From positions 62,001 through 126,000 of the forward strand of contig NZ_JAALJI010000018.1 of NCBI RefSeq assembly GCF_011064595.1: DNA of 64,000 nucleotides, written 5' to 3'. This DNA comes from Paludisphaera soli (GTDB taxonomy: Bacteria > Planctomycetota > Planctomycetia > Isosphaerales > Isosphaeraceae). Made by a program: the position numbers and the translations under genes. Of the stretch, positions 40,476 to 56,001 are shown one piece after another; position 1 is the first letter of the stretch; every line of letters starts with the position of its first letter. The notes under the pieces are model-generated. The model ran no database searches and was not told the origin of the DNA. It saw only the letters and a program-made list of their open reading frames with translations.

Positions 40476-40651
40476 CGAAGCCAACGGCAGGCGACAGGCG
40501 GGAGCGGCCCAGGGCTTCGGGACGAAGGCGCGGGGTGGGCCCTCGGCGAGGGGCGGCTCTTGCCCTTCTCGGTTTTCGGGGGGGCGGATAAGATCCGCGA
40601 TCCTGAAGGATTCCGTGGAGGGTGGCCCGAGTACAGGGAGGTCTCGAGCCG

Positions 40652-43600
40652 ATGCGAAGCCGGCGACGATCGCGCGTGGGTTGGTGCCTGGTCCTGACGG
40701 CCGGGCTGGCGGGGACGGGGATCGGGACCAGGGCCTCGGCCCAGGGGCCGGCGTCGGTGGGGCCCGCGGACGCGCCCGAGGCGGCGGCCGCGCCGCCGCC
40801 GGGCGTCCTGCACGATGGGTTCGAGAGCTCGGCCGCCGTCTGGCGTCGGGAGCACACCGACACTACCATCAACCTCCTGGCCCAGGAGCGGTCCGACCGC
40901 GCCGCGCACGACGGCCGGCTGTCGGAGCGGTTCCAGTTCGAGGCCGAGCCGGGCAGCCAGTTCTTCGTGAGCTACCCGCTGCCGAACATCCCGGTCACCG
41001 ACGCCCTGGAGGCGTCGCTGAGCGTCCGGGCGAACCGGGCCGGGGCGCAGCTGTTCGTCCGGGTCGTCCTCCCCAAGGACGTGGACCCGGAGAGCCGGGC
41101 CCCGTCGTTCGTGCTGGTCCCCGGCACGGTCTTCGACCGGGTCGACCGCTGGCAGACGCTGGACGTGACCCAGATCCCCCCCGCGGTCGAGCGTCAGGCC
41201 CGCGTGCTGCGGGCGTCGTCGAACCGGCCGGTCCCGCTGGAAGGGGCCTACATCGACTGCGTGGTGGTCAACCTGATGGGGGGCCAGGGGGGCGCGGAGG
41301 TCTTCCTGGACGACCTCCAGGTCGGCCCCGTCGCGCCCGAGGTCGCCGCCTCGTGGACGCCCCCCGGCGTACGGCCGGAACGCCCCGAGGCCGAGGCCCT
41401 GCCGGACGCCTCCGCGCCGGCGTCGGCCCCGGCGGCCGTGGCCGAGGACGCCCCGCGAGGGAAGTACGACCGCATCCGGCTCGACCGCAACTACCTCAGC
41501 CGGCTGGAGGACGACCAGCGCCGGCATCCCTGGTTCCCGACCGCCGTCGAGGCCCCCGGGGCCGACGTGGTGGAGCTTCGGCGATACGGGTTCGACGTCC
41601 TGGTCGACTCCCACGACGCCGACCGCGACCGCCTGCAGGAGGCCGTCGACCACGGCTTCTCGCTGATGCCCCGGCTCTCGCGTCCGAAGGCCGGCGAGGG
41701 GACCGACGCCCGGCTGAGGGAGGTGAAGGAGTATCCGTTCAAGGACGCCGCCGCCTTCTGGATGATCGGCGAGGACCTGGGCCGGAACCGCGAGCGAAAG
41801 TTCCGCGACGAGGAGCTGAAGCGGACCCGCGAGCTGATCCAGTCCCTCCACGCCCTGCCGCCGACCTTCTCTCGCCTGACCGTCGGCGAGGTCCGGGGCG
41901 AGCTCCCCCTCTACGCCCGCGCGCCTTCGAACCTGGACACGATCGCGATCCCGACCAACCACTGGGCCGCCGCCCAGGACCAGACCGAGTTCCACCGCTT
42001 CCTCCTCCAGCGCCGGGAGCTGACGGCCCGGGCGAACGCCGGCCAACTCTACTGGGCGATGATCCCGGCCGCGGCCCCCCGGGCCCTGGTGGAAAACATC
42101 TGGGGAGAGGCCCCGCCCCCCGCCTGGGGCGTCCCCCGGCCCCTGCCGGAGCACCTCCGGCTGATGACCTACCTGGCGCTCGCGGCCGGCTACCGCGGGC
42201 TGATCTTCCAGGGCGACGCCGACCTCACCCGCCCCGCCGGCCGGCCCCTGCTGATCGAGTCGGCCCTGCTCAACATGGAGATCGACCTGGTCCAGGGGAT
42301 CCTCGCCCGGAGCGCCGACCCGATCCCGGTCCACTCGGTCTTCGACCCCCCGCCGTCGGACCTGCCGCCGCCGGGGTCGATGCCGACGACGCGGGTGCGG
42401 CTGCAACCGGAGGCCAAGGCCAAGCCCTGGCACAAGGCGGCGGCGATCTCGGTGGACCGCCGTGGCGCCCTGCTGCTGATGTCGGACTACTCCGACCACG
42501 TCCAGTACCAGCCCCACCAGCTGGCCACCCGCGACCTGGTGGTCCGCGCCATCCTCCCCGAGGGGGTCGAGGCGTTCGACGTCAGCCCCGGCGGGGTGGA
42601 CGTGCTGGAGCACAAGCGGGGCCCGGGCGGGACCTACGTCACGCTCGGGGAGTTCGGGGTCACCTCGATGATCCTCTGCACGACCGACATGGCGCTGAAG
42701 GACCGGATCGAGGTCGCCATCGCGCGGGCCCGGCCGACGGCCGTGCAACTGGCCATCGAGCAGGCCGAGCTGATGCTCCAGCAGGTCGCCGAGATCAACG
42801 GCCGGCTCGCCGCCGACGGCGTGACGATCACCTCCCAGGAGGACGTGGCCCAGCGCCGGGCGCTGGGGCTGGACAAGCCCTTCAACGACGCGGCCGAGCT
42901 GCTGGCGCGGGCCGAGGCCAGCATCAAGTCGGCCCGCGAGGCCCGCGACCGCGAGGATTTCGGCCTGGCCTGGAAGGAGGCCCGGCGCGCCCACCGTCCG
43001 CTCCGCATCCTGGCCTTCGCCCACTGGGTCCAGGCCTACACCGCCCTGTCGAAGGCGGTGCCGTCCGACGCCTTCTCGCCCGACCCGCGCGAGTTCCGGG
43101 CCGTCAAGCGGTCCGACCCGCCGGTCCTGATGAAGCCGACGAGCTGCCCCCCCCTGACGACGTTCGCCACCCTCCCCGAGCTCTACGTCTGGCTCGACTG
43201 GATCCGCGGCGCGGCCGGCTACGAGTTCGGGGCCAACCGCGTCCCCTCCGGGGCGTTCGACGACCCCGCGGCGATGGCCGACGAGGGCTGGATGAACATG
43301 AGCTACGAGGCCGAGGGGATCAAGCCGACCATGGCCGTCGTCGCCCCCGACGTGGGGGTCTCGCGCACCGACCCCGACGCCTCCCCCGACGCCCCGTCCG
43401 ACGACGGCAACACGGCGATCCGCATGAACGCCACCCCGATCAACCCCAAGGACCTGGAGACCACCCTGCCGCCGTTCGTCGACCACCCCCTGGTCGCCGT
43501 CCGCTCGCCGACCCTGAAGGTCCGGGCCAACAACCTGATCCGGATCTCGGTGCTGGTCCGCCGGCCGATCGAGTCGGCCGCGGGCGCGGGGGGGATCATC

Positions 43601-43987
43601 GTCCGCGACTCGCTCGGCGGCGAGGCCCTCCAGTTCCGGAGCACGGCCCCGATCGTCAACTGGTCGCGGGTCGTCCTGTTCCGCAAGGCCCCGGCCGATG
43701 GCGAGTTCAACGTGACCCTCGGCCTGGCGGGCTACGGTCAGGCCTGGTTCGACGACTTCCGCGTGGAGCTGGTCGAGCAGGATCGGGGCGACCTCCCGGT
43801 CGACCCGGCCGACGGCCTCGCCGGCGACGAACCCGCCGCCGAGGACGCCGCCGCCGCCTCGACCTCCGCCGCCTCGGCCGATTCCGCCCCCGACCCCCGC
43901 CGCGAGTCCCGCGTCCCCCGCCTGCCCGACCCCCGGCTCCCCGCCACGGCCGGGTCGCCTGAACAAAACCCCGCCCGCCGACGTTGA
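40652..43987 (+). CDS. Large secreted protein with jelly-roll-like ends and a TIM-barrel-like centre
   Basis: 1111 residues. GGGAGG lies 11 bases before the ATG and the signal peptide ends near ASAQG (~30). Residues ~50-230 look like a carbohydrate-binding-type beta sandwich (HDGFESSAAVWRREH, FLDDLQVG); a similar sandwich may lie near the C-terminus (NLIRISVLVRRPIES, GYGQAWFDDFRVELVEQD). The centre resembles a glycoside-hydrolase-like barrel: YGFDVLVDSHDADRD, AFWMIGEDLGRNRE, DTIAIPTNHWAA, GYRGLIFQGDADLTRP. I cannot place catalytic residues, so enzymatic activity is open. It precedes the PilM-like gene by 502 bases on the same strand and ends with a disordered Ala/Pro/Arg tail. Confidence 0.88.
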   Translation: MRSRRRSRVGWCLVLTAGLAGTGIGTRASAQGPASVGPADAPEAAAAPPPGVLHDGFESSAAVWRREHTDTTINLLAQERSDRAAHDGRLSERFQFEAEPGSQFFVSYPLPNIPVTDALEASLSVRANRAGAQLFVRVVLPKDVDPESRAPSFVLVPGTVFDRVDRWQTLDVTQIPPAVERQARVLRASSNRPVPLEGAYIDCVVVNLMGGQGGAEVFLDDLQVGPVAPEVAASWTPPGVRPERPEAEALPDASAPASAPAAVAEDAPRGKYDRIRLDRNYLSRLEDDQRRHPWFPTAVEAPGADVVELRRYGFDVLVDSHDADRDRLQEAVDHGFSLMPRLSRPKAGEGTDARLREVKEYPFKDAAAFWMIGEDLGRNRERKFRDEELKRTRELIQSLHALPPTFSRLTVGEVRGELPLYARAPSNLDTIAIPTNHWAAAQDQTEFHRFLLQRRELTARANAGQLYWAMIPAAAPRALVENIWGEAPPPAWGVPRPLPEHLRLMTYLALAAGYRGLIFQGDADLTRPAGRPLLIESALLNMEIDLVQGILARSADPIPVHSVFDPPPSDLPPPGSMPTTRVRLQPEAKAKPWHKAAAISVDRRGALLLMSDYSDHVQYQPHQLATRDLVVRAILPEGVEAFDVSPGGVDVLEHKRGPGGTYVTLGEFGVTSMILCTTDMALKDRIEVAIARARPTAVQLAIEQAELMLQQVAEINGRLAADGVTITSQEDVAQRRALGLDKPFNDAAELLARAEASIKSAREARDREDFGLAWKEARRAHRPLRILAFAHWVQAYTALSKAVPSDAFSPDPREFRAVKRSDPPVLMKPTSCPPLTTFATLPELYVWLDWIRGAAGYEFGANRVPSGAFDDPAAMADEGWMNMSYEAEGIKPTMAVVAPDVGVSRTDPDASPDAPSDDGNTAIRMNATPINPKDLETTLPPFVDHPLVAVRSPTLKVRANNLIRISVLVRRPIESAAGAGGIIVRDSLGGEALQFRSTAPIVNWSRVVLFRKAPADGEFNVTLGLAGYGQAWFDDFRVELVEQDRGDLPVDPADGLAGDEPAAEDAAAASTSAASADSAPDPRRESRVPRLPDPRLPATAGSPEQNPARRR

Positions 43988-44489: not shown

Positions 44490-46991
44490 ATGGCGAAGAT
44501 CCAGTCCGTCTGGGCGATCGACATCGGCCAGGCCGCGCTGAAGGCGCTCAAGCTGGCCCCCGGGGGGGACGCCGAGCACGTCACCGCCGAGGCGTTCGAC
44601 TTCATCGAGTATCCCAAGCTCCTCAGCCAGCCCGACGCCGACCCCGAGGAGCTGGTCCGCGAGGCCCTGGCGACGTTCACCGACCGCAACGACCTGAAGG
44701 GCTGCCGGGTGGCCATCGCCGTCCCCGGCCAGGCCGGCCTGGTGAAGTTCATCAAGCTGCCTCCGGTCGAGAAGAAGCGGATCCCGGACATCGTCAAATT
44801 CGAGGCCAAGCAGCAGATCCCGTTCGCCCTCGAGGAGGTCGTCTGGGCCTACCAGCAGATCGGCGACGACGACGAGGAGGGGGACGACGACGAGTTCATG
44901 ATGGCCGAGGTCGGCCTCTTCGCCATGAAGCGGGACCAGATCGCCCGCGCCATCCTCCCCCTGACCGTCGCCGGCATCGAGGTCGACGTCGTCCAGATGG
45001 CCCCGATCGCCCTGTACAACTACATCACCTACGACCAGATCAAGGGGAGCGGCTCCAAGGACTCGGTGGTCCTCCTGGACATCGGGGCCGACAACACCGA
45101 CCTGATCATCACCGACGGCGTGCGGATCTGGCAGCGGAACGTGCCGATCGGCGGCAACCACTTCACCCGGGCCCTGACCAAGGAGCTGAAGCTCACCTTC
45201 GCCAAGGCCGAGCACCTGAAGCGGAACGCCACCAAGGCCCCCGACCCCCGCGCCATCTTCACCGCCATGCGGGGCGTGTTCAACGACTTCGCCAGCGAGG
45301 TCAACCGCTCGATCGGCTTCTATTCGAGCATCAACCGGACGGCCAAGATCCGCAAGGTGGTGGGCCTGGGCAACGGCTTCAAGCTGCCGGGGCTCCAGAA
45401 GTTCCTCCAGCAGAACCTCAGCCACGAGGTCGAGAAGGTCGACGAGTTCAAGAGGCTGGAAGGCGACGAGGTCAAGGCGGCGCCCCAGTTCCAGGACAAC
45501 CTGGCGTCGTTCGCCGTCGCCTACGGCCTGGCGCTGCAGGGGGCGGGCCGGTCGGCCCTGCGGACCAACCTGCTGCCGCCGGAGATGGAGACCATCCGCC
45601 TGATCCGGGCCAAGAAGCCCTGGGCGCTGGCCGCCTCGGCCCTGATCATGCTGGGCCTCAGCTCGCTGTTCGTGCTGGGCGACTACCGGGCGCTCGCCAA
45701 GATCTCCACCCCGCAGTTCAAGTCGGCCGTCGACCAGGCGACCGGCGTCTCCAAGAACGGGGCGTCGATCAAGAGCGGCCTCGACACCGCCAAGTCCGAG
45801 TGGCAGGCCAAGTACGACGAGGGCAAGGCCCTGATCATCGACCCCTCCAACAAGGGGATGTGGCCCGCCTTCCTCAAGACCGTCAGCGGCTACTTCCCCG
45901 ACCCCGTCGCCGACTACGGGCTCAACCCCAACGAGCCCAAGAACGAGTACCTGATCGAGAAGCTCCGCCTCCACATCGACCGGATCATGCCGGTCTGGCG
46001 CACCGACCTCGCCGTCGACTGGTTCGACGAGCTCGACCCGCTCTACAAGCGGCTCATGCACCCCTACGACGCCGAGAACCCGCCGACCGGCGAAGGCTGG
46101 ATCGTCCAGGTCGTGGCGCACCACTACAACCCGTACCCCAACGCCGAGCAGCTCCGTCTCCCCGTCGACGACCCCCGCCGGGTCGACTTCGGCCCCTACG
46201 AGTTTCTCGTCCGCAAGGTGCTCCGCAAGCTCAACTCCCCCTCGCTGCGGCTCTACGGCGTCACCCACGTCGCCCTGGCCTGGATGAACACCGACAAGAA
46301 CTGGACCAACGAGAAGGGGAGCCAGACCAACAACCTCGCCAGCCGGACCGTCCCCCTCCTCGACCGCGCCGCTCCTCCGGTTGAAGAAGGCGGCGCAGGC
46401 GAGATGGGAATGATGGGCGGGATGATGGGGAGTATGATGGGGAGCATGAGTTCCGGCATGATGGGAGGCCGGGGCGGCCGAATGGGTGAGATGGGCGGCA
46501 TGGGCATGGAAGGTATGATGGGCATGGGGAGCATGATGCCCGGCATGATGGGCCCCGGCGGGATGCGCGGCATGGGCGGACCGAACGCCGAGGCCGAGAA
46601 GAACATCCGCAAGCTCACCCGCACCGACTTCCTGCTCCAGTTCGTCTGGATCCCTCCCGCGCCCAGCGAGGAGGACAAGGACAAGACCCCCGAGGAGCTG
46701 CTGGAAGCCCGCAAGGCCCAGCTCCAGGAGATCGTCGGCAAGATGAGCGAGGCCGAGAAGGGGAACTCGGCGGTCACGATCCCGGTGTCCGAGGCCGAGA
46801 TCGAGAAGGCCTCCACCAAGAAGTCCGACGAGATCGACAGCGCCATCACCAAGGCCCTGAGCGCCCCCGCGCCGGGGACCCCGGGTGCCCCCGCCGCCAA
46901 GGGAGCGACGCCCCCCGCCGCCCCGGGCGCCGCGACGCCCCCGGCCGCCAAGGGCGCGGCGGCACCGGCCGAGGCCGCCCCCAAGTCCTGA
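44490..46991 (+). CDS. PilM-like ATPase fused to a PilN-like membrane/periplasmic region
   Basis: 833 residues; GAGAGGAG precedes the ATG. Residues 1-~360 are a PilM-type actin-like ATPase: VWAIDIGQAALKAL, IAVPGQAGLVKFIKLPPVEK, DIVKFEAKQQIPFALEEVVW, SVVLLDIGADNTDLIITDG (~193) and VVGLGNGFKLPGLQKFL. A membrane helix follows (KPWALAASALIMLGLSSLFV, ~375-395), then a ~230-residue periplasmic part with no recognised domain, a Met/Gly-rich tract (~638-697) and an Ala/Pro-rich end. In type IV pili PilM and PilN are usually separate; here the topology suggests a fusion. It probably forms the cytoplasmic/inner-membrane base of a pilus- or secretion-like machine with the next three genes. Confidence 0.88.
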   Translation: MAKIQSVWAIDIGQAALKALKLAPGGDAEHVTAEAFDFIEYPKLLSQPDADPEELVREALATFTDRNDLKGCRVAIAVPGQAGLVKFIKLPPVEKKRIPDIVKFEAKQQIPFALEEVVWAYQQIGDDDEEGDDDEFMMAEVGLFAMKRDQIARAILPLTVAGIEVDVVQMAPIALYNYITYDQIKGSGSKDSVVLLDIGADNTDLIITDGVRIWQRNVPIGGNHFTRALTKELKLTFAKAEHLKRNATKAPDPRAIFTAMRGVFNDFASEVNRSIGFYSSINRTAKIRKVVGLGNGFKLPGLQKFLQQNLSHEVEKVDEFKRLEGDEVKAAPQFQDNLASFAVAYGLALQGAGRSALRTNLLPPEMETIRLIRAKKPWALAASALIMLGLSSLFVLGDYRALAKISTPQFKSAVDQATGVSKNGASIKSGLDTAKSEWQAKYDEGKALIIDPSNKGMWPAFLKTVSGYFPDPVADYGLNPNEPKNEYLIEKLRLHIDRIMPVWRTDLAVDWFDELDPLYKRLMHPYDAENPPTGEGWIVQVVAHHYNPYPNAEQLRLPVDDPRRVDFGPYEFLVRKVLRKLNSPSLRLYGVTHVALAWMNTDKNWTNEKGSQTNNLASRTVPLLDRAAPPVEEGGAGEMGMMGGMMGSMMGSMSSGMMGGRGGRMGEMGGMGMEGMMGMGSMMPGMMGPGGMRGMGGPNAEAEKNIRKLTRTDFLLQFVWIPPAPSEEDKDKTPEELLEARKAQLQEIVGKMSEAEKGNSAVTIPVSEAEIEKASTKKSDEIDSAITKALSAPAPGTPGAPAAKGATPPAAPGAATPPAAKGAAAPAEAAPKS
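46401..46580. repeat. Met/Gly-coding repeat tract 1
   Basis: Near-repeated ATGATGGGC/ATGGGC units encode strings of MMGG, MGG and MGM in the PilM-like protein. Copies also occur in the next two genes. Confidence 0.85.
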
Positions 46992-47093
46992 TCCATCGAG
47001 ACGCCGTCGCCGTCCCCGGGGCCGAATCGGCCCCGGGACGGCCGGCGGCCTCGCCCCTTCCCTTCCCCGGCCCATCGATCGAGGTTGCCCATC

Positions 47094-48917
47094 ATGGATC
47101 AAGTCAAGGATATCCTCCGGCAGATCGCCCGGTACCGATTCTGGATCTCCGTCTGCATCGCGGCCATGCTCTCGGCCGGGGCGTACGTCCTCGGCTCGGG
47201 CCCGGTCCAGAAGCAGACCGCCGACGAGACCGGCAAGATCACGTCGGCCTACAAAGACGTCCAGCAGTATGCCAGCAGCACCGTCCCCACCGGCGACTTC
47301 GCCCCGATCGTGGAGCAGAAGACGGCCGTCCTGACCAAGGACGTCGACACCGCCTGGCGGAAGCTCTACGATCGCCAGGCACCCCTCCTGACCTGGCCCG
47401 AGACCGTCTCGGAGCGGTTCACCAAGTGGGGCCGCAAGTGGCCTGAGGACGTCGCCCCGAGCGCCGTGACGCTCGCCATCGTCGACTACGTCGAGGCCTA
47501 CGACCCCTACGTCGATCAGGTCTTCAAGGTCTTCCGGCCGTTCGACTACGAGACCGGTGAGGGGGTGGTCGCCTCGGCACCCAAGGAGCAACTCCTCCGC
47601 CCCGTCAAGTTCGACCTCAATTCCAAGCCCCCCCGCCTCGGCGACGTCTGGTCCGCCCAGGAACGGCTCTGGGTCCAGCGCACCGCCCTCGAGGTGATCG
47701 CCGCCGTCAACCGCGGCGCCAAGGACTGGAACTCCGCCTACATCAAGGAGATCAAGGCCCTGGAAGTCGGCAGCGCCCTGGCCCAGGACCAGCGTTCGCT
47801 CGCCGCCGGCGAGGAGCTGGAAGAAGCCGAATCCATCCTCGCCCCGGGTGAGACCGAGGAAGAGGAAGAAACCGGCGGCATGGGCGAGATGGGGATGATG
47901 GGCGGCATGATGGGCGAGGCGATGAGTCGCCGTAGTGGAATGATGGGCGGCGGCGGCGGCCCCGCGGCCGGCACCAACGAGGCCGAGAGCGTCCTCTTTC
48001 TCAAGCCCGAGAACGCCACCCAGTACAAGATCCTGCCGATCATGCTGACCGTGCTCGTCGATCAGGACCACGTCCAGGATCTGCTCGTCGAGCTGGAAAA
48101 CTCGCCCATGTCCATCGAGGTCCGTGACTTCGAATTGCTCCGACCCACCGAGAAGGTCACGAAACCCGAGAAGGGCGAGCAGTTCATGGGTGGCTACGGC
48201 ATGATGGGAATGATGGGGATGATGGGTGGCCGCGGTCGCGGCGGCATGCAGGGTTATGGTGGGATGATGTCCGGCATGATGGGTGGCCGCGGCGGCCGCA
48301 TGGACGAGATGGGAATGGCCGGAATGATGGGGGGCATGGGCCCCGGCATGGGCGGCATGGGTGCCATGGGAGGAATGAACACCCGGAAGGGCGTCGACAA
48401 GCGTGGCGAGAACCGCGCCGAGAAGCGCAAGGAAGACGAGAAGGCCCTGGCGGCCTCCCGCCCCGTCGTCAACTTCGACGCCTACTTCAACATCGTCGAG
48501 GTCACCGTCTACGGTCAGGCCCGCTTCTATAACGATCCGGCCCTGGAGCCCGCGGCGACCGATTCGCTGGGCGAGGCCGGTGCCGAGGCCGAGACGCCCG
48601 CGGAACCGACTGCGGAAACGACCCCGGGCGAAGCCCCCGCCGAGACCCCGGCCGTCGAGACTCCGGCCGCCGAGACCCCGAAGGCCGACGCCTCGCCGAC
48701 GGAGGCCACTCCGGCCGAGGCGCCGAAGGCGGAAGCGGCCCCGGCGGACGCGCCGAAGACGGATGCGCCCCCGGCCGAGACCCCCGCGGCCGAGGCGCCG
48801 AAGGCGGAAGCGGCCCCGGCCGCGCCCGCCCAGCCGGCCGAGGCGCCGAAGGCGGAAGCGACCCCGGCCGCGCCCGCCCAGCCGGCCGAGGCGGATGCGG
48901 CGGCCCCCCAACCCTGA
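47094..48917 (+). CDS. Single-pass membrane protein in the PilO position, Met/Gly-rich
   Basis: 607 residues. A short cytoplasmic N-terminus and one membrane helix (~17-37, FWISVCIAAMLSAGAYVLG) are followed by a long periplasmic part, a topology shared with PilN/PilO. No sequence family is recognised. Met/Gly-rich tracts occur at about residues 262-289 and 365-428, and the last ~120 residues are an Ala/Pro/Glu/Thr/Lys low-complexity repeat (variants of EAPKAEAAPA). ATG chosen at MDQVKD after GATCGAGG; an in-frame TTG three codons earlier is possible. Its place right after the PilM-like gene supports an inner-membrane role in the same machine; function is inferred. Confidence 0.85.
   Translation: MDQVKDILRQIARYRFWISVCIAAMLSAGAYVLGSGPVQKQTADETGKITSAYKDVQQYASSTVPTGDFAPIVEQKTAVLTKDVDTAWRKLYDRQAPLLTWPETVSERFTKWGRKWPEDVAPSAVTLAIVDYVEAYDPYVDQVFKVFRPFDYETGEGVVASAPKEQLLRPVKFDLNSKPPRLGDVWSAQERLWVQRTALEVIAAVNRGAKDWNSAYIKEIKALEVGSALAQDQRSLAAGEELEEAESILAPGETEEEEETGGMGEMGMMGGMMGEAMSRRSGMMGGGGGPAAGTNEAESVLFLKPENATQYKILPIMLTVLVDQDHVQDLLVELENSPMSIEVRDFELLRPTEKVTKPEKGEQFMGGYGMMGMMGMMGGRGRGGMQGYGGMMSGMMGGRGGRMDEMGMAGMMGGMGPGMGGMGAMGGMNTRKGVDKRGENRAEKRKEDEKALAASRPVVNFDAYFNIVEVTVYGQARFYNDPALEPAATDSLGEAGAEAETPAEPTAETTPGEAPAETPAVETPAAETPKADASPTEATPAEAPKAEAAPADAPKTDAPPAETPAAEAPKAEAAPAAPAQPAEAPKAEATPAAPAQPAEADAAAPQP
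47878..48378. repeat. Met/Gly-coding repeat tracts 2
   Basis: Two tracts, 47878-47960 and 48187-48378, built of ATGATGGG/ATGGGC-type units encoding MMGG-rich sequence and separated by ordinary coding sequence. Confidence 0.82.
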
Positions 48918-49003
48918 CCCCTCGCCTCGCGGCGGAGCGAACCACCCGATCGACCACGGTCCTCCCCAAACCCGGGGGGCTCACTTCTCACGGAGATCCT
49001 CGC

Positions 49004-51100
49004 ATGGCCAACGCCACTGCGGAAAAGCTCAAGAACTTCGGCCTGAGGTTCGGCGACAAGATCGCCGTGGCCCTGGCCTCGGTCCTCTTCGTCTTGTGTC
49101 TGGTCAGCGCCCTGCAGCGGCCGACGATCGACGTCTCGCCAGAGCAGATCAAGAAGGCGGCCGAGCAGTCCGACTCCAACCTGCGCCGCAAGGTCCCGAC
49201 CGATCAGATCGTCGAGACCCTGGCCGAGGGGGGCCTCAAGAATTCCGACTTCGCCAAGGAGGCCGAGAAGTCGTCGCAGATGGTCCTCGTGGCGGCCGAC
49301 TTCAAGCCCCGCCGCGAGTGGGTGGTACCTGAACCGGGCGCGGGCCTGATCCGCGACCAGCCCGAACTGATCGCGCCGACCGACGTCTTCGCCTATCCCG
49401 GCCGCGGCGGGGCGCTCGTGTACGCCCTCGACGCCGAAGGGAACCGGATCGTCGAGACCGAGACGAAGGAGCCGCCGAAGTCCACCACCTTCCGCCGCAA
49501 CCGTCGCGGTCGTCGCGGCGGTGGAGGCTCGTCGAGCATGATGGGAAGCATGATGGGCGGAATGGGCGGCATGGGCATGGAAGGCATGATGGGCGGGGCC
49601 CCTCGGACCCCTGAGGAGGAGAAGGCCCAGAAGGCCGAGTACGAACGCCGCAAGCGTGAAATGCAGGCCCGCCTGGCCGGCAAGGACGCGCCCGCCAAGG
49701 ACGAGCCCGAGGATCCGGCCACGAAGGGCCAGGGCCCGCCCGCCAAGGAGATCACCAAGGGGCTGCGCTGGGTCGCCCTGACCGCGACCCTCGACCACAA
49801 GCAGATGCTCGACAACTACCGCTCGGCGCTCAAGAACCCGGCGATCGCCCACCCCAACTACTCCCGCCTGGACGTCCAGCGTCAGGCGAAGCAGAAGGAC
49901 GGCTCCTGGAGCGATTGGGCCGACGTCTCGGCCGACCGCAACCTGGAAATCCTCGACAACCTGCCGATGGAGGACGAGGAACTCGCCCCCGATACCGTCC
50001 GCCCCTCGAACCTCGTCGACCCCCTGCCGTTCCTGACCACCGGCCTCTGGGAGAAGGTCCACATCGCCAGCCTGGTCCCCAAGGAGTTGAAGGACATCCC
50101 CGACCCGACCGCGGCCGGCCAGGGAGGCATGATGGGCCGGGGCGGCATGATGGGAAGCATGATGGGGGGCATGATGGGCATGGAAAGTGAGATGGGCGGC
50201 ATGATGGGCGGCTCCGGCATGATGGGCGGCTCCGGCATGATGGGCCGGGGCTCCGGCAGCATGATGGGCATGGCCGGCATGATGGGCATGGAAGGTGAGA
50301 TGGGCGGAATGATGGGCGGCTCCGGCATGATGGGGGGCGGGGCCACCGAGACCCTGGCCAACTTCTGGCGGTCCGAGGAAGAGAAGGTGATGATCCGCGC
50401 CCTGGACTTCACCGCCCAGCCGGACGAGAGCTACCGCTACCGGGTCCGGATCGTGGTCTACAACCCGAACCTGAGCCGGGACGACGTCTCGCCGGGCGTG
50501 GACACCAAGTCCGAGACGCTGCCAGGCCCCTGGAGCGAGACGACGGCCGAGGTCCACATGCCGCCGGACGTGACCGCTTACGCGATGGGGACGCTCCCCG
50601 CCACGCCCAAGTCGGAGATGAAGGTGGTGTTCCAGGTCGTGAAGTTCAACCCGGAAGACGGCATGATCCTGCCCCGGAACTTCGAGGCCAGCCCCGGCGA
50701 GATCATCGGCGACCCGCGATCGGCCCCGATCCCGACGTCGGACGGCACGGGCCAGAAGACGAAGCTCGTGGACTTCAACAGCCACCTGATCGTGCTGGAC
50801 GTGGCCGGCGGCCTCAAGCCGCTGCCGGAGGACTTCCCGGGCAACGTGATCGCCCAGCCGGCCGTCGCCCTGCTGCTGCGTCCCGACGGGGCCGTGGAGC
50901 TCCGGGACGAGGCCGAGGACCGTCCCGACGAGGTCCGCAAGGACGTCGAGAGCAACTACAAGCGCGAGCTCAAGGAGTCCGACAAGGTCCGCTCCAGCTC
51001 CATGGGGGGCGGCTACGGCGACATGATGGGCGGGATGGGCTCCGGGATGATGGGCGGCTCCGGGATGATGGGCGGCGGCACCGGCCGCGGCCGTCGTTGA
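49004..51100 (+). CDS. Single-pass membrane protein in the PilP position, Met/Gly-rich
   Basis: 698 residues. Near the N-terminus is one helix (~20-40, KIAVALASVLFVLCLVSALQ), followed by a large periplasmic part. Met/Gly-rich tracts occur near residues 178-200 and 375-446 and at the C-terminus (~667-697). Between them are strand-rich segments (KGLRWVALTATLDHKQMLDN, ESYRYRVRIVVYNPNLSRDD, SEMKVVFQVVKFNPEDGMIL) that could form beta domains. No named family. GGAG lies before the ATG. It is the last gene before a strong terminator, so the PilM-like gene, the PilO-position gene and this gene probably form one transcript. Confidence 0.85.
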   Translation: MANATAEKLKNFGLRFGDKIAVALASVLFVLCLVSALQRPTIDVSPEQIKKAAEQSDSNLRRKVPTDQIVETLAEGGLKNSDFAKEAEKSSQMVLVAADFKPRREWVVPEPGAGLIRDQPELIAPTDVFAYPGRGGALVYALDAEGNRIVETETKEPPKSTTFRRNRRGRRGGGGSSSMMGSMMGGMGGMGMEGMMGGAPRTPEEEKAQKAEYERRKREMQARLAGKDAPAKDEPEDPATKGQGPPAKEITKGLRWVALTATLDHKQMLDNYRSALKNPAIAHPNYSRLDVQRQAKQKDGSWSDWADVSADRNLEILDNLPMEDEELAPDTVRPSNLVDPLPFLTTGLWEKVHIASLVPKELKDIPDPTAAGQGGMMGRGGMMGSMMGGMMGMESEMGGMMGGSGMMGGSGMMGRGSGSMMGMAGMMGMEGEMGGMMGGSGMMGGGATETLANFWRSEEEKVMIRALDFTAQPDESYRYRVRIVVYNPNLSRDDVSPGVDTKSETLPGPWSETTAEVHMPPDVTAYAMGTLPATPKSEMKVVFQVVKFNPEDGMILPRNFEASPGEIIGDPRSAPIPTSDGTGQKTKLVDFNSHLIVLDVAGGLKPLPEDFPGNVIAQPAVALLLRPDGAVELRDEAEDRPDEVRKDVESNYKRELKESDKVRSSSMGGGYGDMMGGMGSGMMGGSGMMGGGTGRGRR
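50127..50343. repeat. Met/Gly-coding repeat tract 3
   Basis: Longest of the tracts, encoding repeated MMGGSGMMGG and MGMEGEMGG-type units. A further shorter tract is at 49537-49603 and another at 51002-51088 in the same gene. Confidence 0.85.
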
Positions 51101-51153
51101 TCCCCGAGATTCTCCGACCCGTCCGATTCGACCGACCGACCGAACGACCCGAG

Positions 51154-51188
51154 ACGCCCCCGCCGTACAGCCGGCGGGGGCGTTTTTT
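51154..51188 (+). terminator. Intrinsic terminator of the PilM-like operon
   Basis: ACGCCCCCGCCG (51154-51165) pairs with CGGCGGGGGCGT (51172-51183) around a 6-base loop, followed by a run of six T from 51183. The textbook structure lies 54 bases after the last gene. Confidence 0.92.
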
Positions 51189-51247
51189 CTTGCCTCGTCG
51201 GAGCGGCCGGCATTTTCCGCGTTTTCGGGAAAAGTCGACCCCCCGTC

Positions 51248-51276
51248 TTGACCGAAACTCTCATTAGAGGTACACA
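51248..51276 (+). promoter_or_regulatory. Candidate promoter of the secretin gene
   Basis: TTGACC and TACACA are spaced by 17 bases, downstream of the terminator and ~230 bases before the secretin start. The -35 box is good, the -10 box weak. Confidence 0.35.
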
Positions 51277-51314
51277 CCGCCGCATCTTCTCCCGTTCTCG
51301 ACGCGCCCCTTTGG

Positions 51315-51467
51315 ATGAACACCTCGACTCGACGCGTCGGGAGGGATTTTCGTTTCACTTGGGTTGAAGACCCCGTCCTGGTGTACCTGGACGGGTTCCG
51401 GGCGCAGCTGCCGCACAAATTGTCTCTCGCCGTGGGACTCGAACGAAGGCCGCTCTCAGGGATGTAG
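51315..51467 (+). CDS. Possible short upstream open frame (50 codons)
   Basis: The frame begins MNTSTRRVGRDFRF and continues DPVLVYLDGFRAQLPHKLS, ending just before the secretin. The central codons have the high third-position GC typical of genes here, but there is no clear ribosome-binding site and the start codons are AT-richer. It may be a leader peptide, a real small gene or chance. Confidence 0.3.
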   Translation: MNTSTRRVGRDFRFTWVEDPVLVYLDGFRAQLPHKLSLAVGLERRPLSGM

Positions 51468-51490
51468 GCGGTCGTCCGCGTGGCGGCGAA

Positions 51491-51496
51491 AGGAGG
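51491..51496 (+). promoter_or_regulatory. Ribosome binding site fixing a TTG start for the secretin
   Basis: A perfect AGGAGG lies 5 bases before TTG at 51502, which directly opens the signal peptide. Other in-frame starts lack such a site. Confidence 0.7.
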
Positions 51497-51501
51497 TCGC
51501 G

Positions 51502-54500
51502 TTGAGAAGGCTCAGAACGCTCACTTTCATCATGGTCCTCGGTGCAGGGGGGGGAGCGTCCACGGAAGGTGCGACCCTCGACGACGCGGTCGCCTCGCCG
51601 TCATCGACGACGGCCCGGAAGCCGTCGCCGGCGCCCCCGGTCAAGTATCTGGAGGCGGGGGCCAAGCTCTTCAACGGCGGGCAGTTCGACCTGGCCGCCA
51701 AGTATCTCGATGCGGCCCAGCTGTATCGCGATCAATTGGAGCCGGCCCACCAGGCCCTGCTCGACGAATATGCGAGGGAGCTCAAGAAGGTCAAGGGGAC
51801 GGTCCTGGCGGCCGCCCCGGCCCCGGCGCCGGCCGCAACGCCGGCCGCCGCGGCGGTGACGCCGTCGGCCTCGTCGCCGGCGATCGCCGAGGCCCGCCCG
51901 GTCTCGCGTACGGAATCGGCCCCGGCCTCGGCCCGGCCCGAAGACCCGGACGCGAAGCAGCGGGGCCGCTGGCTCCTGCAGGAGGCCGGCGAGCAGATCC
52001 TGCTCGGCGACTACGACGCCGCCGAGGCGAAGATCGCCGAGGCCGAGGCCCTGAACGTCAAGTGGGGGCTCTTCGACGTGACGCCGGCCAAGGCCCGCGC
52101 GTCGCTGGCGAAGGCCCGCCCGAAGGGGGCCCCGGCCGCCGCGGGCAAGGCCGTGCAGGTGGCGGACCACAAGACCGCCAAGGCCAAGCTCAAGGAGGCC
52201 CGCACCGCCCTGGACGACCGCAAGTTCGAGGTCGCCGAGGCCATCGCGCTGGAGGTCAAGGGCTGGAACCTGTCGTACGGCATGTTCGAGGACAACCCGG
52301 AGAAGGTGGCGGCCGCCGCCCGCGCCCTCCGCAAGCGTGACGCGATCCGCGGCACGCCGAGCCGGGACCAGGCCAGCCCGGGCGTCTACGACGTGCTGGT
52401 CCAGGAGTCCCGCGAGCTGTTGAAGGCGGGCAAGCTGGCGGAGGCCGAGTCCAAGGCCCGCCAGGCCCAGCGCATGAACGTCGTCCCGGCCCTGACCGCC
52501 GACCGGGCGGAGGCCGTGCTGCACGAGGTCGCCATGGCCCGCGCCGCCGGCGACGCCGCCCCGACCGTCGCGGCCGCCCCGGCCGAGACCGTGGAGCGCG
52601 AGGCCGACGCCCTGCTCGCCAAGGGCGACCAGGCCGCGGCCGCCGCCAAGTTCGCCGAGGCCGACCGGCTCCGCGCCCAGGGCGCCGGCCTGCCGGCCCT
52701 CGCCGTCGCCTCCCCGCGGATCGACGACCAGGTGCAGAAGAGCGGGGCCGAGGAGCCCGCTCTCGACGCGCCGGGACTCGAACTCGCCCCGGCCCCCGCC
52801 CTCGCGGCGGACGCCGACGACCTCGCCGCCCCGGCCCCGGCCCCGGCCGAGGCCCCGGCCCCCGCCCTCGCGGCGGACGCCGACGACCTCGCCGCCCCGG
52901 CTCCGGCCGCGGCCCCGGCCCTCGCCGACGTCGACGCCGACGCGGCCCCGGGCAAGCCCGGCGATCGGATGCTGTCCCAGGCCAAGGCCCTCTACTCCGA
53001 AGGCAACTACGCGGCCGCCCGGCAGCTCGCCGAGCAGGTCAAGGCCGGCGGCTTCGGCCTCGAGGACGAGGCCGACGAGCTGTCCGCCCAGGTCGGCCTC
53101 GCCGAGCAGGGGGGCGCCCTCAGCCTGTACGAGTCCGCCCTCACCGCGATGCGGCAGGGTGAGAAGGATCGGGCCAGGAACCTGCTGACCGAGGTCGCCT
53201 CGGCCGGCTCGGTCCTCGACGAGAGCCTCCAGGCCAAGGTCCAGGAGCTGCTCAAGTCCCTGACCACCGACCAGATCGGCGATCCCGCCGGTCGGGCCGT
53301 CGTCAACGACCGGATGCAGAGCGCCAGCGACGTCGAGAGCGTCGCCGCCCAGAAGCTCAACGCCGAGGTCGGCGCCAAGATCGCCGAGGCCCGCCGGCTC
53401 CAGGAAGTCGACCCCGAGAAGGCCCTGGCCATCTACGAGCAGACCCTCAAGGCGGTCAAGGCCTCGGAAGTCGCCCCCAACCTCCAGCGTCCGATGGTCC
53501 GCCGCCTCGAGGTGGCCGTCGAGCTCGCCAAGAAGGACAAGGTCCTCTTCGACGAGAAGATGAAGGAGAAGGGCGCCCGCGAGGAGATCGAGGTCAAGCG
53601 GCTGCGGATCCTCGAGGCCGACAAGGCCAAGAAGGCCCGCTACAAGGAGCTGTTCGAGAAGGCCCAGGCGGCCTACGCCACCGAGGACTTCTACCGCGCC
53701 GAGTCCTACGCCAAGCAGGCCATGGAGATCGACCCCACCGAGGTCGCCGCCCCCATGATGGTCTTCAAGGCCAAGGCCGAACGCCGGTACAAGCAGGACA
53801 AGGACACGAAGGCCGCCAAGGAGGACGCCGTGGTCGTCGCCCTCCAGGAAGTGGACCGCGCGTCCTACGCCGACCCCGAGGTCCAGCTCCGGGACATCAG
53901 CTTCCCGAAGAGCTTCAACGACCTGACCAAGAGCCGCCTGGCGATGAACAAGCGGCTGGAGCCCAAGAAGAACCCCAAGACCCTGGCGGTGGAGACCAAG
54001 CTCCGCGAGCCCATCAGCGTCAACTTCGACAAGCAGCCGCTCGGCGAGGCCATGGCGTTCATCAGCAACTACACCGGGGTGAACATCACGATCGACCCGA
54101 AGGCGCTCAGCGACGAGGGCCTCACGTCCTCGACGCCGGTGTCGCTGAACCTGGCGAACGTGTCGCTCAAGACGGTGCTGAAGCTCATGCTCAAGCCCCT
54201 GGGCATGAACTACACGATCGAGGAAGACGTCCTCGTCGTCACCAACAACCAGGCCTCGAGCCAGGAGACGTTCACCAACACGTACTACGTCGGCGACCTG
54301 ATCGTGCCCAAGTCGAAGACCGGCCAGGAGACGGCCGGCTCGGCGTTCAGCCCGATCAAGGTGCCCAACGCCGACGGGACCGGCGGGGCCCAGGGGATCC
54401 CCCTGGGGGCGACCACGCCCGGGGCGCCGACGGCCGTCGGCCAGGAGCGGCCCGAGGTGAACATGGCCCCCCTGATCCAGCTCATCACCGCCTCGATCGC

Positions 54501-56001
54501 GCCCAACACCTGGCGGGTCATCGACGGCGGCGAGAACGGCCAGGACGTCTCGGCGGCCTACGGCCTCGGCGGCGGCTTCGGCGGCGGCGGCGGGGCGGGC
54601 GGCGACATCGACGCGGGGCGTCCCCCCGGCTCGATCACGCCGTTCTTCCTCAGCATCAGCCTGATCATCCGCCACACGGCCGAGGTGCATGAACAGGTCG
54701 CCGACCTGCTCCGCCAGCTCCGCCGGCTCCAGGACCTGCAGGTCTCGATCGAGGTCCGGTTCATCACGGTCACCGACTCGTTCTTCGAGCAGATCGGCGT
54801 CGACTTCGACTTCGCCATCAACTCCAAGAGCGTGGGCAAGCAGAGCACCTGGGCCTACCCGAACAACACCGTCACCAACCAGTTCGGGGCGCCCGGCGGC
54901 GGCGGCACGACCGGCGGCGGCGGCGGGATCGGCGGCGGCGGCGGCACGACCGGCGGCGGCACGACCGGCGGCGGCACGACCGGCGGCGGCACGACCGGCG
55001 GCGGGGCCGGCGGGATCGGCGGCGGCGGGGCCGGCGGGATCGGCGGCGGCGGGGCCGGCGGCGGCATCGGCGGCGGCGGGATCGGCGGCGGCGGGGCCGG
55101 CGGCGGGATCGGCGGCGGTGGCGGCACGACCGGCGGCGGCGGCGGCAACACCACGCCCGCCTACCTGATCAACCCGATCCGCGACTACTCCAACTACCTC
55201 CCCGGCGGCAAGCAGCCGATCGTGGTGGGGACGCAGGGGGGCGGGCTCTACAACTTCTCGCCGAACCTGCAGATCCCGTTCACCAACACCCAGGGGAGCC
55301 TGATCGCCCCGTTCAACACGGTGGCCGGGGCCGGCGCCTCGCTGGGCATGGCGTTCCTGAGCGACCTGGAAGTCTACTTCTTCCTCACGGCCGCCCAGGG
55401 CGACACCCGCAACAACATCCTCCAGGCGCCCAAGGTGACCACCTTCAACGGCGCCGCGGCCACGATCCAGAACGGCGACGTGCAGTACTTCGTCTCGTCG
55501 CTGCTGCCGATCATCGGCCCCGGCTCGGTGGCCTTCCAGCCCCAGGTCACGCCGCTGAACAACGGCGTCTTCCTGACGGTCACCCCGGTCGTCACGGCCG
55601 ACCGCCGGTACGTCCGGCTGAGCCTGTCGCCGCAGTTCACGATCGTCAACGGCTTCACCACGATCTCGGTCCCGGCCGCGGTCGGCGGGGCCGGCCTGGG
55701 CGGCGCCTCGGCGGCGATCAACGGCACGATCCAGCTGCCGAACTTCACCTTCACCACCGTCAACACCACGGTCACCGTCCCCGACGGCGGCACGGTGCTG
55801 CTCGGCGGCGTCAAGCAGCTCCAGGAACAGCGTCTGGAGTACGGCGTCCCCGTCCTCTCCAAGACCCCCTGGATCGACCGCCTCTTCCGCAACGTCGGCA
55901 TCGGCCGCACGTCCTCCAGCCTCATGCTGATGGTGACCCCCCGGATCATCATCCTCGAGGAAGAGGAAGAGCGGCTGGGCATCCCCTCGGTCGCCTTCTG
56001 A
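51502..56001 (+). CDS. Secretin (PilQ/GspD-type outer-membrane channel) with long N-terminal repeats and Gly-rich insertion
   Basis: 1499 residues from a TTG start; signal peptide RRLRTLTFIMVLGAGGGAST. Residues ~30-700 are TPR-like helical repeats separated by Ala/Pro linkers (LLLGDYDAAEAKIAEAEALN, LDDRKFEVAEAIALEVKGWN, ELLKAGKLAEAESKARQAQR). From ~830 comes an STN/secretin-N domain (LREPISVNFDKQPLGEAMAF, LNLANVSLKTVLKLMLKPLG); near 1050 a secretin repeat (HTAEVHEQVADLLRQLRRLQ). A ~90-residue Gly-rich insertion (~1128-1216) follows, then the secretin barrel (~1290-1483, GDTRNNILQAPKVTTFNGAA, VPDGGTVLLGGVKQLQEQRL, LMLMVTPRIIILEEEEERLG). It should form the outer-membrane pore of the machine encoded upstream. 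PilQ and GspD usually have 600-800 residues. Confidence 0.95.
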   Translation: MRRLRTLTFIMVLGAGGGASTEGATLDDAVASPSSTTARKPSPAPPVKYLEAGAKLFNGGQFDLAAKYLDAAQLYRDQLEPAHQALLDEYARELKKVKGTVLAAAPAPAPAATPAAAAVTPSASSPAIAEARPVSRTESAPASARPEDPDAKQRGRWLLQEAGEQILLGDYDAAEAKIAEAEALNVKWGLFDVTPAKARASLAKARPKGAPAAAGKAVQVADHKTAKAKLKEARTALDDRKFEVAEAIALEVKGWNLSYGMFEDNPEKVAAAARALRKRDAIRGTPSRDQASPGVYDVLVQESRELLKAGKLAEAESKARQAQRMNVVPALTADRAEAVLHEVAMARAAGDAAPTVAAAPAETVEREADALLAKGDQAAAAAKFAEADRLRAQGAGLPALAVASPRIDDQVQKSGAEEPALDAPGLELAPAPALAADADDLAAPAPAPAEAPAPALAADADDLAAPAPAAAPALADVDADAAPGKPGDRMLSQAKALYSEGNYAAARQLAEQVKAGGFGLEDEADELSAQVGLAEQGGALSLYESALTAMRQGEKDRARNLLTEVASAGSVLDESLQAKVQELLKSLTTDQIGDPAGRAVVNDRMQSASDVESVAAQKLNAEVGAKIAEARRLQEVDPEKALAIYEQTLKAVKASEVAPNLQRPMVRRLEVAVELAKKDKVLFDEKMKEKGAREEIEVKRLRILEADKAKKARYKELFEKAQAAYATEDFYRAESYAKQAMEIDPTEVAAPMMVFKAKAERRYKQDKDTKAAKEDAVVVALQEVDRASYADPEVQLRDISFPKSFNDLTKSRLAMNKRLEPKKNPKTLAVETKLREPISVNFDKQPLGEAMAFISNYTGVNITIDPKALSDEGLTSSTPVSLNLANVSLKTVLKLMLKPLGMNYTIEEDVLVVTNNQASSQETFTNTYYVGDLIVPKSKTGQETAGSAFSPIKVPNADGTGGAQGIPLGATTPGAPTAVGQERPEVNMAPLIQLITASIAPNTWRVIDGGENGQDVSAAYGLGGGFGGGGGAGGDIDAGRPPGSITPFFLSISLIIRHTAEVHEQVADLLRQLRRLQDLQVSIEVRFITVTDSFFEQIGVDFDFAINSKSVGKQSTWAYPNNTVTNQFGAPGGGGTTGGGGGIGGGGGTTGGGTTGGGTTGGGTTGGGAGGIGGGGAGGIGGGGAGGGIGGGGIGGGGAGGGIGGGGGTTGGGGGNTTPAYLINPIRDYSNYLPGGKQPIVVGTQGGGLYNFSPNLQIPFTNTQGSLIAPFNTVAGAGASLGMAFLSDLEVYFFLTAAQGDTRNNILQAPKVTTFNGAAATIQNGDVQYFVSSLLPIIGPGSVAFQPQVTPLNNGVFLTVTPVVTADRRYVRLSLSPQFTIVNGFTTISVPAAVGGAGLGGASAAINGTIQLPNFTFTTVNTTVTVPDGGTVLLGGVKQLQEQRLEYGVPVLSKTPWIDRLFRNVGIGRTSSSLMLMVTPRIIILEEEEERLGIPSVAF
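54886..55153. repeat. Tandem GGC-rich repeats coding Gly tract
   Basis: A ~270-base stretch of near-tandem units such as GGCGGCGGCACGACC (at least four adjacent copies near 54940-55010) and GGCGGCGGGGCC, encoding runs of Gly broken by TT, AGG or IGG. It is in frame inside the secretin gene. Confidence 0.85.

Follow-up and report, generated by a model that had tools for sequence, protein, structure and literature searches.

The window analyzed here is a stretch of 64,000 nucleotides of the Paludisphaera soli genome, and the genes within its positions 44490-56001 raise the question of whether they encode an envelope machine specific to planctomycetes or the base of a pilus of known kind. The initial annotation favored the former, since it recognized a pilM-N-O-P-Q order without a recognizable PilN, PilO or PilP in the middle, and long Met/Gly tracts in three consecutive proteins. 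Four consecutive open reading frames on the forward strand, encoding a PilM-like protein, two single-pass membrane proteins and a secretin, are indeed present in this region (Table 1). The gene order agrees with the earlier reading, but the number of genes does not: there are four genes rather than the five of pilMNOPQ because PilN is fused to PilM.

Table 1. Positions of the four genes and their low-complexity tracts in the window
Feature	Position	Strand	Basis
Gene 1, PilM-PilN fusion	44490..46991	+	PF11104, NF045709, PilM chains of the PDB, NLLP motif
Met/Gly tract of gene 1 (protein residues 627-704)	46368..46601	+	Met counts
Gene 2, single-pass PilO/Amuc_1100-like protein	47094..48917	+	AlphaFold2 model, VIA alignment, profile chain
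First Met/Gly tract of gene 2, in a loop predicted to be disordered	47847..47969	+	model, Met counts
Second Met/Gly tract of gene 2, in a loop predicted to be disordered that precedes the last helix and strand	48159..48407	+	model, Met counts
Gene 3, single-pass protein, Amuc_1099 position	49004..51100	+	AlphaFold2 model, VIA alignment, conserved position
First Met/Gly tract of gene 3	49499..49621	+	model, Met counts
Second Met/Gly tract of gene 3	50096..50365	+	model, Met counts
C-terminal Met/Gly tract of gene 3	50981..51094	+	model, Met counts
Gene 4, PilQ/Amuc_1098-like secretin	~51502..56001	+	PF00263, PF07660, TIGR02515, NF042912; TTG start with RBS
Gly/Thr-rich, Met-free tract in the secretin	54880..55146	+	sequence

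Gene 1 joins PilM-like and PilN-like parts

The gene 1 protein consists, in this order, of a cytoplasmic PilM domain, an NLLP motif, one membrane helix (around residue 378) and a periplasmic domain that carries a Met/Gly tract. Pfam recognized the PilM domain (PF11104, E = 1.5e-36), and the PilM model TIGR01175 of NCBIfam was matched above its cut-off (167.6 bits against 133), as for the PilM of a type IVa pilus. The best NCBIfam family was NF045709 (Amuc_1101, 5.6e-62), although its equivalog cut-off was not reached (210 of 650 bits). The PDB matches included PilM chains (3jc8 with 3.8e-30, as well as 2ych and 5eou), one of which, 5eou, carries PilN residues. There is one PilM copy in the genome.

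The motif TNLLPPE lies between the PilM domain and the sole membrane helix. Motifs of the NLLP type are the PilN segment that docks on PilM, as established for the Thermus and Pseudomonas proteins. A strict pattern for this motif before the membrane helix was found in 61 of the 69 gene 1 homologues from Planctomycetota, Verrucomicrobia and Lentisphaerae, and most of those that failed it either show a close variant of the motif or are disrupted genes. The Pfam PilN family (PF05137) matched neither gene 1 nor any other part of the genome; the PilN features present in gene 1 are the NLLP motif, the membrane helix and the periplasmic domain. The part behind the helix was linked across groups by profile comparisons (8.9e-18, then 1.5e-13), which indicates that this region is homologous between them. 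Judged by its sequence, gene 1 is PilM joined to PilN. In one relative (locus L073, G038:C5, 11231-13767) the PilM-PilN gene lies in two reading frames, reflecting either a real break or a sequencing error.

Gene 2 resembles Amuc_1100 and PilO

Neither gene 2 nor gene 3 had a significant match to any Pfam or NCBIfam family. Pfam PilO (PF04350) was matched neither by gene 2 nor across the whole genome, and planctomycete queries matched neither the Amuc_1099 nor the Amuc_1100 model of NCBIfam. PDB sequence searches with genes 2 and 3 were rejected, as they gave low-complexity or chance matches only, and profile matches among genes 1, 2 and 3 of Planctomycetia, which spanned no more than roughly 20 to 50 columns around the membrane segment, were set aside.

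The AlphaFold2 model of gene 2 (mean pLDDT 77) consists of a membrane helix, a helical stalk and a ferredoxin-like core. The top PDB rows obtained with Foldseek were Amuc_1100 and PilO chains, with E-values that are non-significant when taken alone (0.68). Realignment with VIA gave Z-scores of 11.1 for Amuc_1100 6lad (rmsd 6.1, 179 residues aligned), 10.7 for Amuc_1100 6kny (rmsd 3.5, 168 residues aligned) and 6.7 for PilO 2rjz, while unrelated chains scored 5.2 or less; a GspM-type fold would also be compatible with these lists. The predicted fold is consistent with the periplasmic ferredoxin-like domain of PilO-type proteins. Profile comparisons led to the same relatives in three steps, from the Planctomycetia gene to the Phycisphaerae-type gene (5.9e-21), from there to the gene of Verrucomicrobia and Lentisphaerae (1e-8), and from the Verrucomicrobial gene to Amuc_1100 of the PDB (2.8e-20). 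In addition, a plain HMM of planctomycete gene 2 matched the Verrucomicrobial gene in two loci (5e-4 and 3e-3). Gene 2 is therefore related to the Amuc_1100 group by both profile and fold, and encodes a PilO-type protein akin to Amuc_1100 of Akkermansia. The earlier observation that the middle proteins lack known PilN, PilO or PilP relatives holds for ordinary profiles but not for fold and profile chain, and it loses its value as a sign of a new machine, with PilN appearing as the second half of gene 1 and gene 2 being PilO-like.

Gene 3 and the secretin

In the AlphaFold2 model of gene 3 (pLDDT 74) a membrane helix is followed by an Fn3-type domain split by a long insertion and by a further beta domain at the C-terminus. 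VIA aligned the model with an Fn3 tandem (Z 8.1, rmsd 2.7 over 101 residues), and one gene 3 homologue from a distant planctomycete matched Pfam Fn3 (1.9e-7). The Foldseek rows, which were antibodies and Fn3 chains, were read as denoting an Fn3-type domain only. Throughout the phylum, gene 3 follows gene 2 in most loci, and a weak profile link over the membrane segment (4.6e-5 and 7.9e-4) connects it to the third gene of the Verrucomicrobial loci, which hints at homology with Amuc_1099. PilP was not matched in the Pfam and NCBIfam scans, and no lipobox was seen on reading the sequence. Most likely, gene 3 stands in for PilP or GspC and would bridge to the secretin.

The TTG start of gene 4 stands behind the RBS AAAGGAGG. 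The encoded protein has a long N-terminal region that resembles repeats, followed by STN and secretin domains, and its Pfam matches (PF00263, 1.8e-26; PF07660, 7e-5) identify an outer-membrane secretin. Profiles for PilQ, GspD and Amuc_1098 were all matched, GspD with 1.3e-26 and PilQ with a slightly higher score. The NCBIfam matches to TIGR02515 (9.9e-29) and NF042912 (2.8e-24) were both below cut-off, the Amuc_1098 equivalog reaching 85 of 750 bits. A second, more GspD-like secretin is encoded elsewhere in the genome. Two Phycisphaerae-type loci contain a secretin-matching open reading frame, possibly a fusion, with up to 17 Met per 40 residues (L216:16064-19615 and L239:16084-19401), in contrast to the Met-free tract in the secretin of gene 4.

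Met/Gly tracts in the three inner-membrane proteins

The second observation of the initial annotation, that three consecutive proteins carry long Met/Gly tracts, was borne out. The maximum numbers of Met per 40 residues in genes 1, 2 and 3 are 16, 14 and 16, compared to means of 5.3, 6.1 and 7.6 in composition-preserving shuffles (99th percentiles 8, 9 and 10), and the secretin has a maximum of 3, as expected from shuffling. Of the 20 genome-wide occurrences of GGNATGATGGGNGG, 14 fall in genes 1-3. In both AlphaFold2 models, those of genes 2 and 3, the tracts fall where pLDDT is below 50, and the gene 1 tract, as read from the sequence, probably sits in a loop of the same kind. The tracts recur in relatives: in all 25 Isosphaeraceae loci each of the three inner-membrane proteins has at least 9 Met per 40 residues, and the secretins have at most 4. 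Outside this family most loci, including those of the named Gemmataceae, are without tracts; where tracts do occur, two or all three of proteins 1-3 tend to carry them (Fisher tests with loci treated as independent of relatedness: genes 2 and 3, p = 0.0006; genes 1 and 3, p = 0.007; genes 1 and 2, p = 0.025). In the alignment with Amuc_1100, the loop that matches the tract position is an Ala/Pro-rich low-complexity stretch, and the position therefore seems to hold a variable loop in the PVC group, with different content in different lineages.

The tracts are not unique to the pilus operon. Similar words were found in three other proteins of this genome, one of them DUF1559-like and one with an STN domain, as well as in many other places in the genomes of relatives, so a restriction to the operon was rejected; the words are enriched in the pilus genes. 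In one protein a sigma-70 (ECF) factor is joined to a DUF1559-like domain whose Met/Gly tracts resemble those of genes 1-3 (L178:3-2207, G000:C118). Another is a TPR and STN-domain protein that ends in a GGM-repeat tract (L182:3215-5311, G000:C165) and weakly resembles the N-region of the Amuc_1098 secretin, with no secretin domain matched.

It is possible, though rather doubtful, that the tracts do little and represent low-complexity expansions which the loops happen to tolerate. The occurrence of Met/Gly words in other Isosphaeraceae proteins and the variability of the loops in relatives are in line with this idea, as is the use of all four Gly codons in the tracts, which implies that they did not arise by recent copying of a single DNA unit. 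However, Met content remains high in all three proteins of all 25 loci, even though sequence identity drops to about 40% for gene 2 and about 35% for gene 3; a G+C content of 70% does not favor Met, and outside the family the tracts still tend to co-occur in tests blind to kinship.

The rest of the machine and its distribution

At a locus away from the window (L074, G000:C2) the genome encodes pilB-pilT-pilB-pilC and two prepilins, one of which is GspG-like. PilT scored 448 bits against a cut-off of 319, and PilB was just under its NCBIfam cut-off. The genome is thereby equipped with the PilB and PilT motors, PilC and prepilins of a type IVa pilus, and the presence of PilT points to a pilus that may retract. 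Among Isosphaeraceae, PilM was detected in 42 of 45 genomes, including all 26 good ones, and among sampled Planctomycetota in 243 of 244. Every good Isosphaeraceae genome has the secretin, which is directly downstream in 15 of the 25 loci and does not adjoin in the other 10. The four genes recur in identical order in loci of Verrucomicrobia and Lentisphaerae, and one of the secretins there exceeds the curated Amuc_1098 cut-off. Taken together with the near-universal PilM of Planctomycetota, this argues that the system is PVC-wide. The proposal of a planctomycete-specific envelope machine is consequently retained only in part: the machine is based on PilM and a secretin and would span the periplasm, but it is shared with these other phyla.

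One of the closest known systems is the Amuc_1098-1102 cluster of Akkermansia muciniphila (PilQ, Amuc_1099, Amuc_1100, Amuc_1101), which, read via the Verrucomicrobia and Lentisphaerae loci, has the same order and homologues of genes 1, 2 and 4. The proteins on the Isosphaeraceae side differ in being much longer and in having Met/Gly tracts, the homology of gene 3 is weak, and genes 1 and 4 remain below the curated equivalog cut-offs. The Akkermansia cluster, its abundance and the location of its secretin in the outer membrane have been described (PMC5332112, PMC4960237). Type IVa PilMNOPQ of Pseudomonas, Myxococcus and Thermus shares PilM, the NLLP motif, a PilO-like fold, the secretin and, in the genome, PilB, PilT and PilC. 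It differs in that PilN is here fused to PilM, with the Pfam families of PilN and PilO unmatched in the genome, and in that a single-pass Fn3-type protein takes the place of a recognizable PilP.

A platform for type II-like protein secretion (GspC/L/M/D-like) instead of a pilus seems quite unlikely. Such a platform would share the joined cytoplasmic and periplasmic parts of GspL, which the layout of the PilM-PilN fusion recalls, the single-pass partners and the secretin; the GspD match of gene 4 and the GspG-like prepilin in the motor cluster fit as well, and gene 3 may be regarded as GspC-like in having a membrane helix and no lipid anchor. Against this, gene 1 has a true PilM domain with a strong profile match above the TIGR01175 cut-off, PilT in the motor cluster exceeds its own cut-off, the predicted fold of gene 2 comes closest to those of Amuc_1100 and PilO, the PilQ profile slightly outscores GspD for gene 4, and the genome has another GspD-like secretin. 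Pfam and NCBIfam profiles of GspC and GspM were not matched by genes 2 and 3.

Based on the present data, the four genes very probably specify a type IVa alignment complex that serves a retractable pilus and has the PVC form known from Akkermansia Amuc_1101-1098, a degree of confidence that applies to the identity as a pilus and does not extend to the role of the Met/Gly loops. The gene content, the homology of genes 1, 2 and 4, the predicted folds of genes 2 and 3 and the presence of the motor are direct results; the identities of genes 1, 2 and 4 are well supported, and from these data we infer that of gene 3, the assembly of genes 1-4 into one complex and the retraction of the pilus. In such a complex, the cytoplasmic ring in contact with the PilB/PilT motor would be linked covalently, within gene 1, to both the membrane helix and the periplasmic domain, gene 2 would be the PilO-type partner of gene 1, gene 3 would lead to the secretin as PilP or GspC does elsewhere, and gene 4 would form the outer-membrane pore, with the motor (pilB, pilT, pilC) and prepilins supplied from the other locus.

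Possible roles of the loops

The pilus base itself is of a known kind, and the new element is formed by the Met/Gly tracts; no description of such loops common to three partner subunits was found in the searchable papers. Our tentative preference is that the loops are flexible, mutually interacting linkers. They may bridge a wide periplasm or bind to one another, and this would account for their appearance in several subunits together. For PilO, conserved residues in unstructured regions matter for pilus function in Pseudomonas (PMC5805733).

Planctomycetes have crateriform structures with 12 nm fibres that bind dextran and connect both membranes, the makeup of which was left open and called enigmatic (PMC5394234). 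In a later paper similar appendages were compared with the Thermus type IV pilus (PMC8303584), and in Planctopirus limnophila three pilQ-like genes could be deleted together (PMC11958385). That the loops of the three subunits stick together and let the base span or adjust to an enlarged periplasm, with the machine forming the inner part of the crateriform structures and their dextran-binding fibres, is an unlikely extension of the pilus reading.

The initial annotation also suggested Cu(I) binding or flexible, adhesive filaments. Met-rich sites bind Cu(I), and the tracts have dense Met at MxM and MxxM spacing in periplasmic segments; a copper-responsive or copper-carrying machine is nevertheless very improbable, as the tracts are limited to some lineages while the machine is phylum-wide and the neighboring genes tested by Pfam are not copper genes. 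A general role in copper handling, or a role as a filament, is unlikely because the tracts are lineage-restricted and lie within the inner-membrane platform.

The present assignments name planctomycete genes for which Pfam and NCBIfam offer no name or only a partial one, and show the Akkermansia-type pilus cluster to be the form that the pilus base takes across Planctomycetota. They also provide a defined gene set for asking what builds planctomycete fibres and crateriform structures, and the Met/Gly loops of the three partner subunits are directly testable. Upstream of the four genes, at 40622-43987 (+) of the window, lies a gene for a 1121-residue protein without a Pfam or NCBIfam match, which is kept at the same place in many of the Isosphaeraceae loci that cover this stretch.
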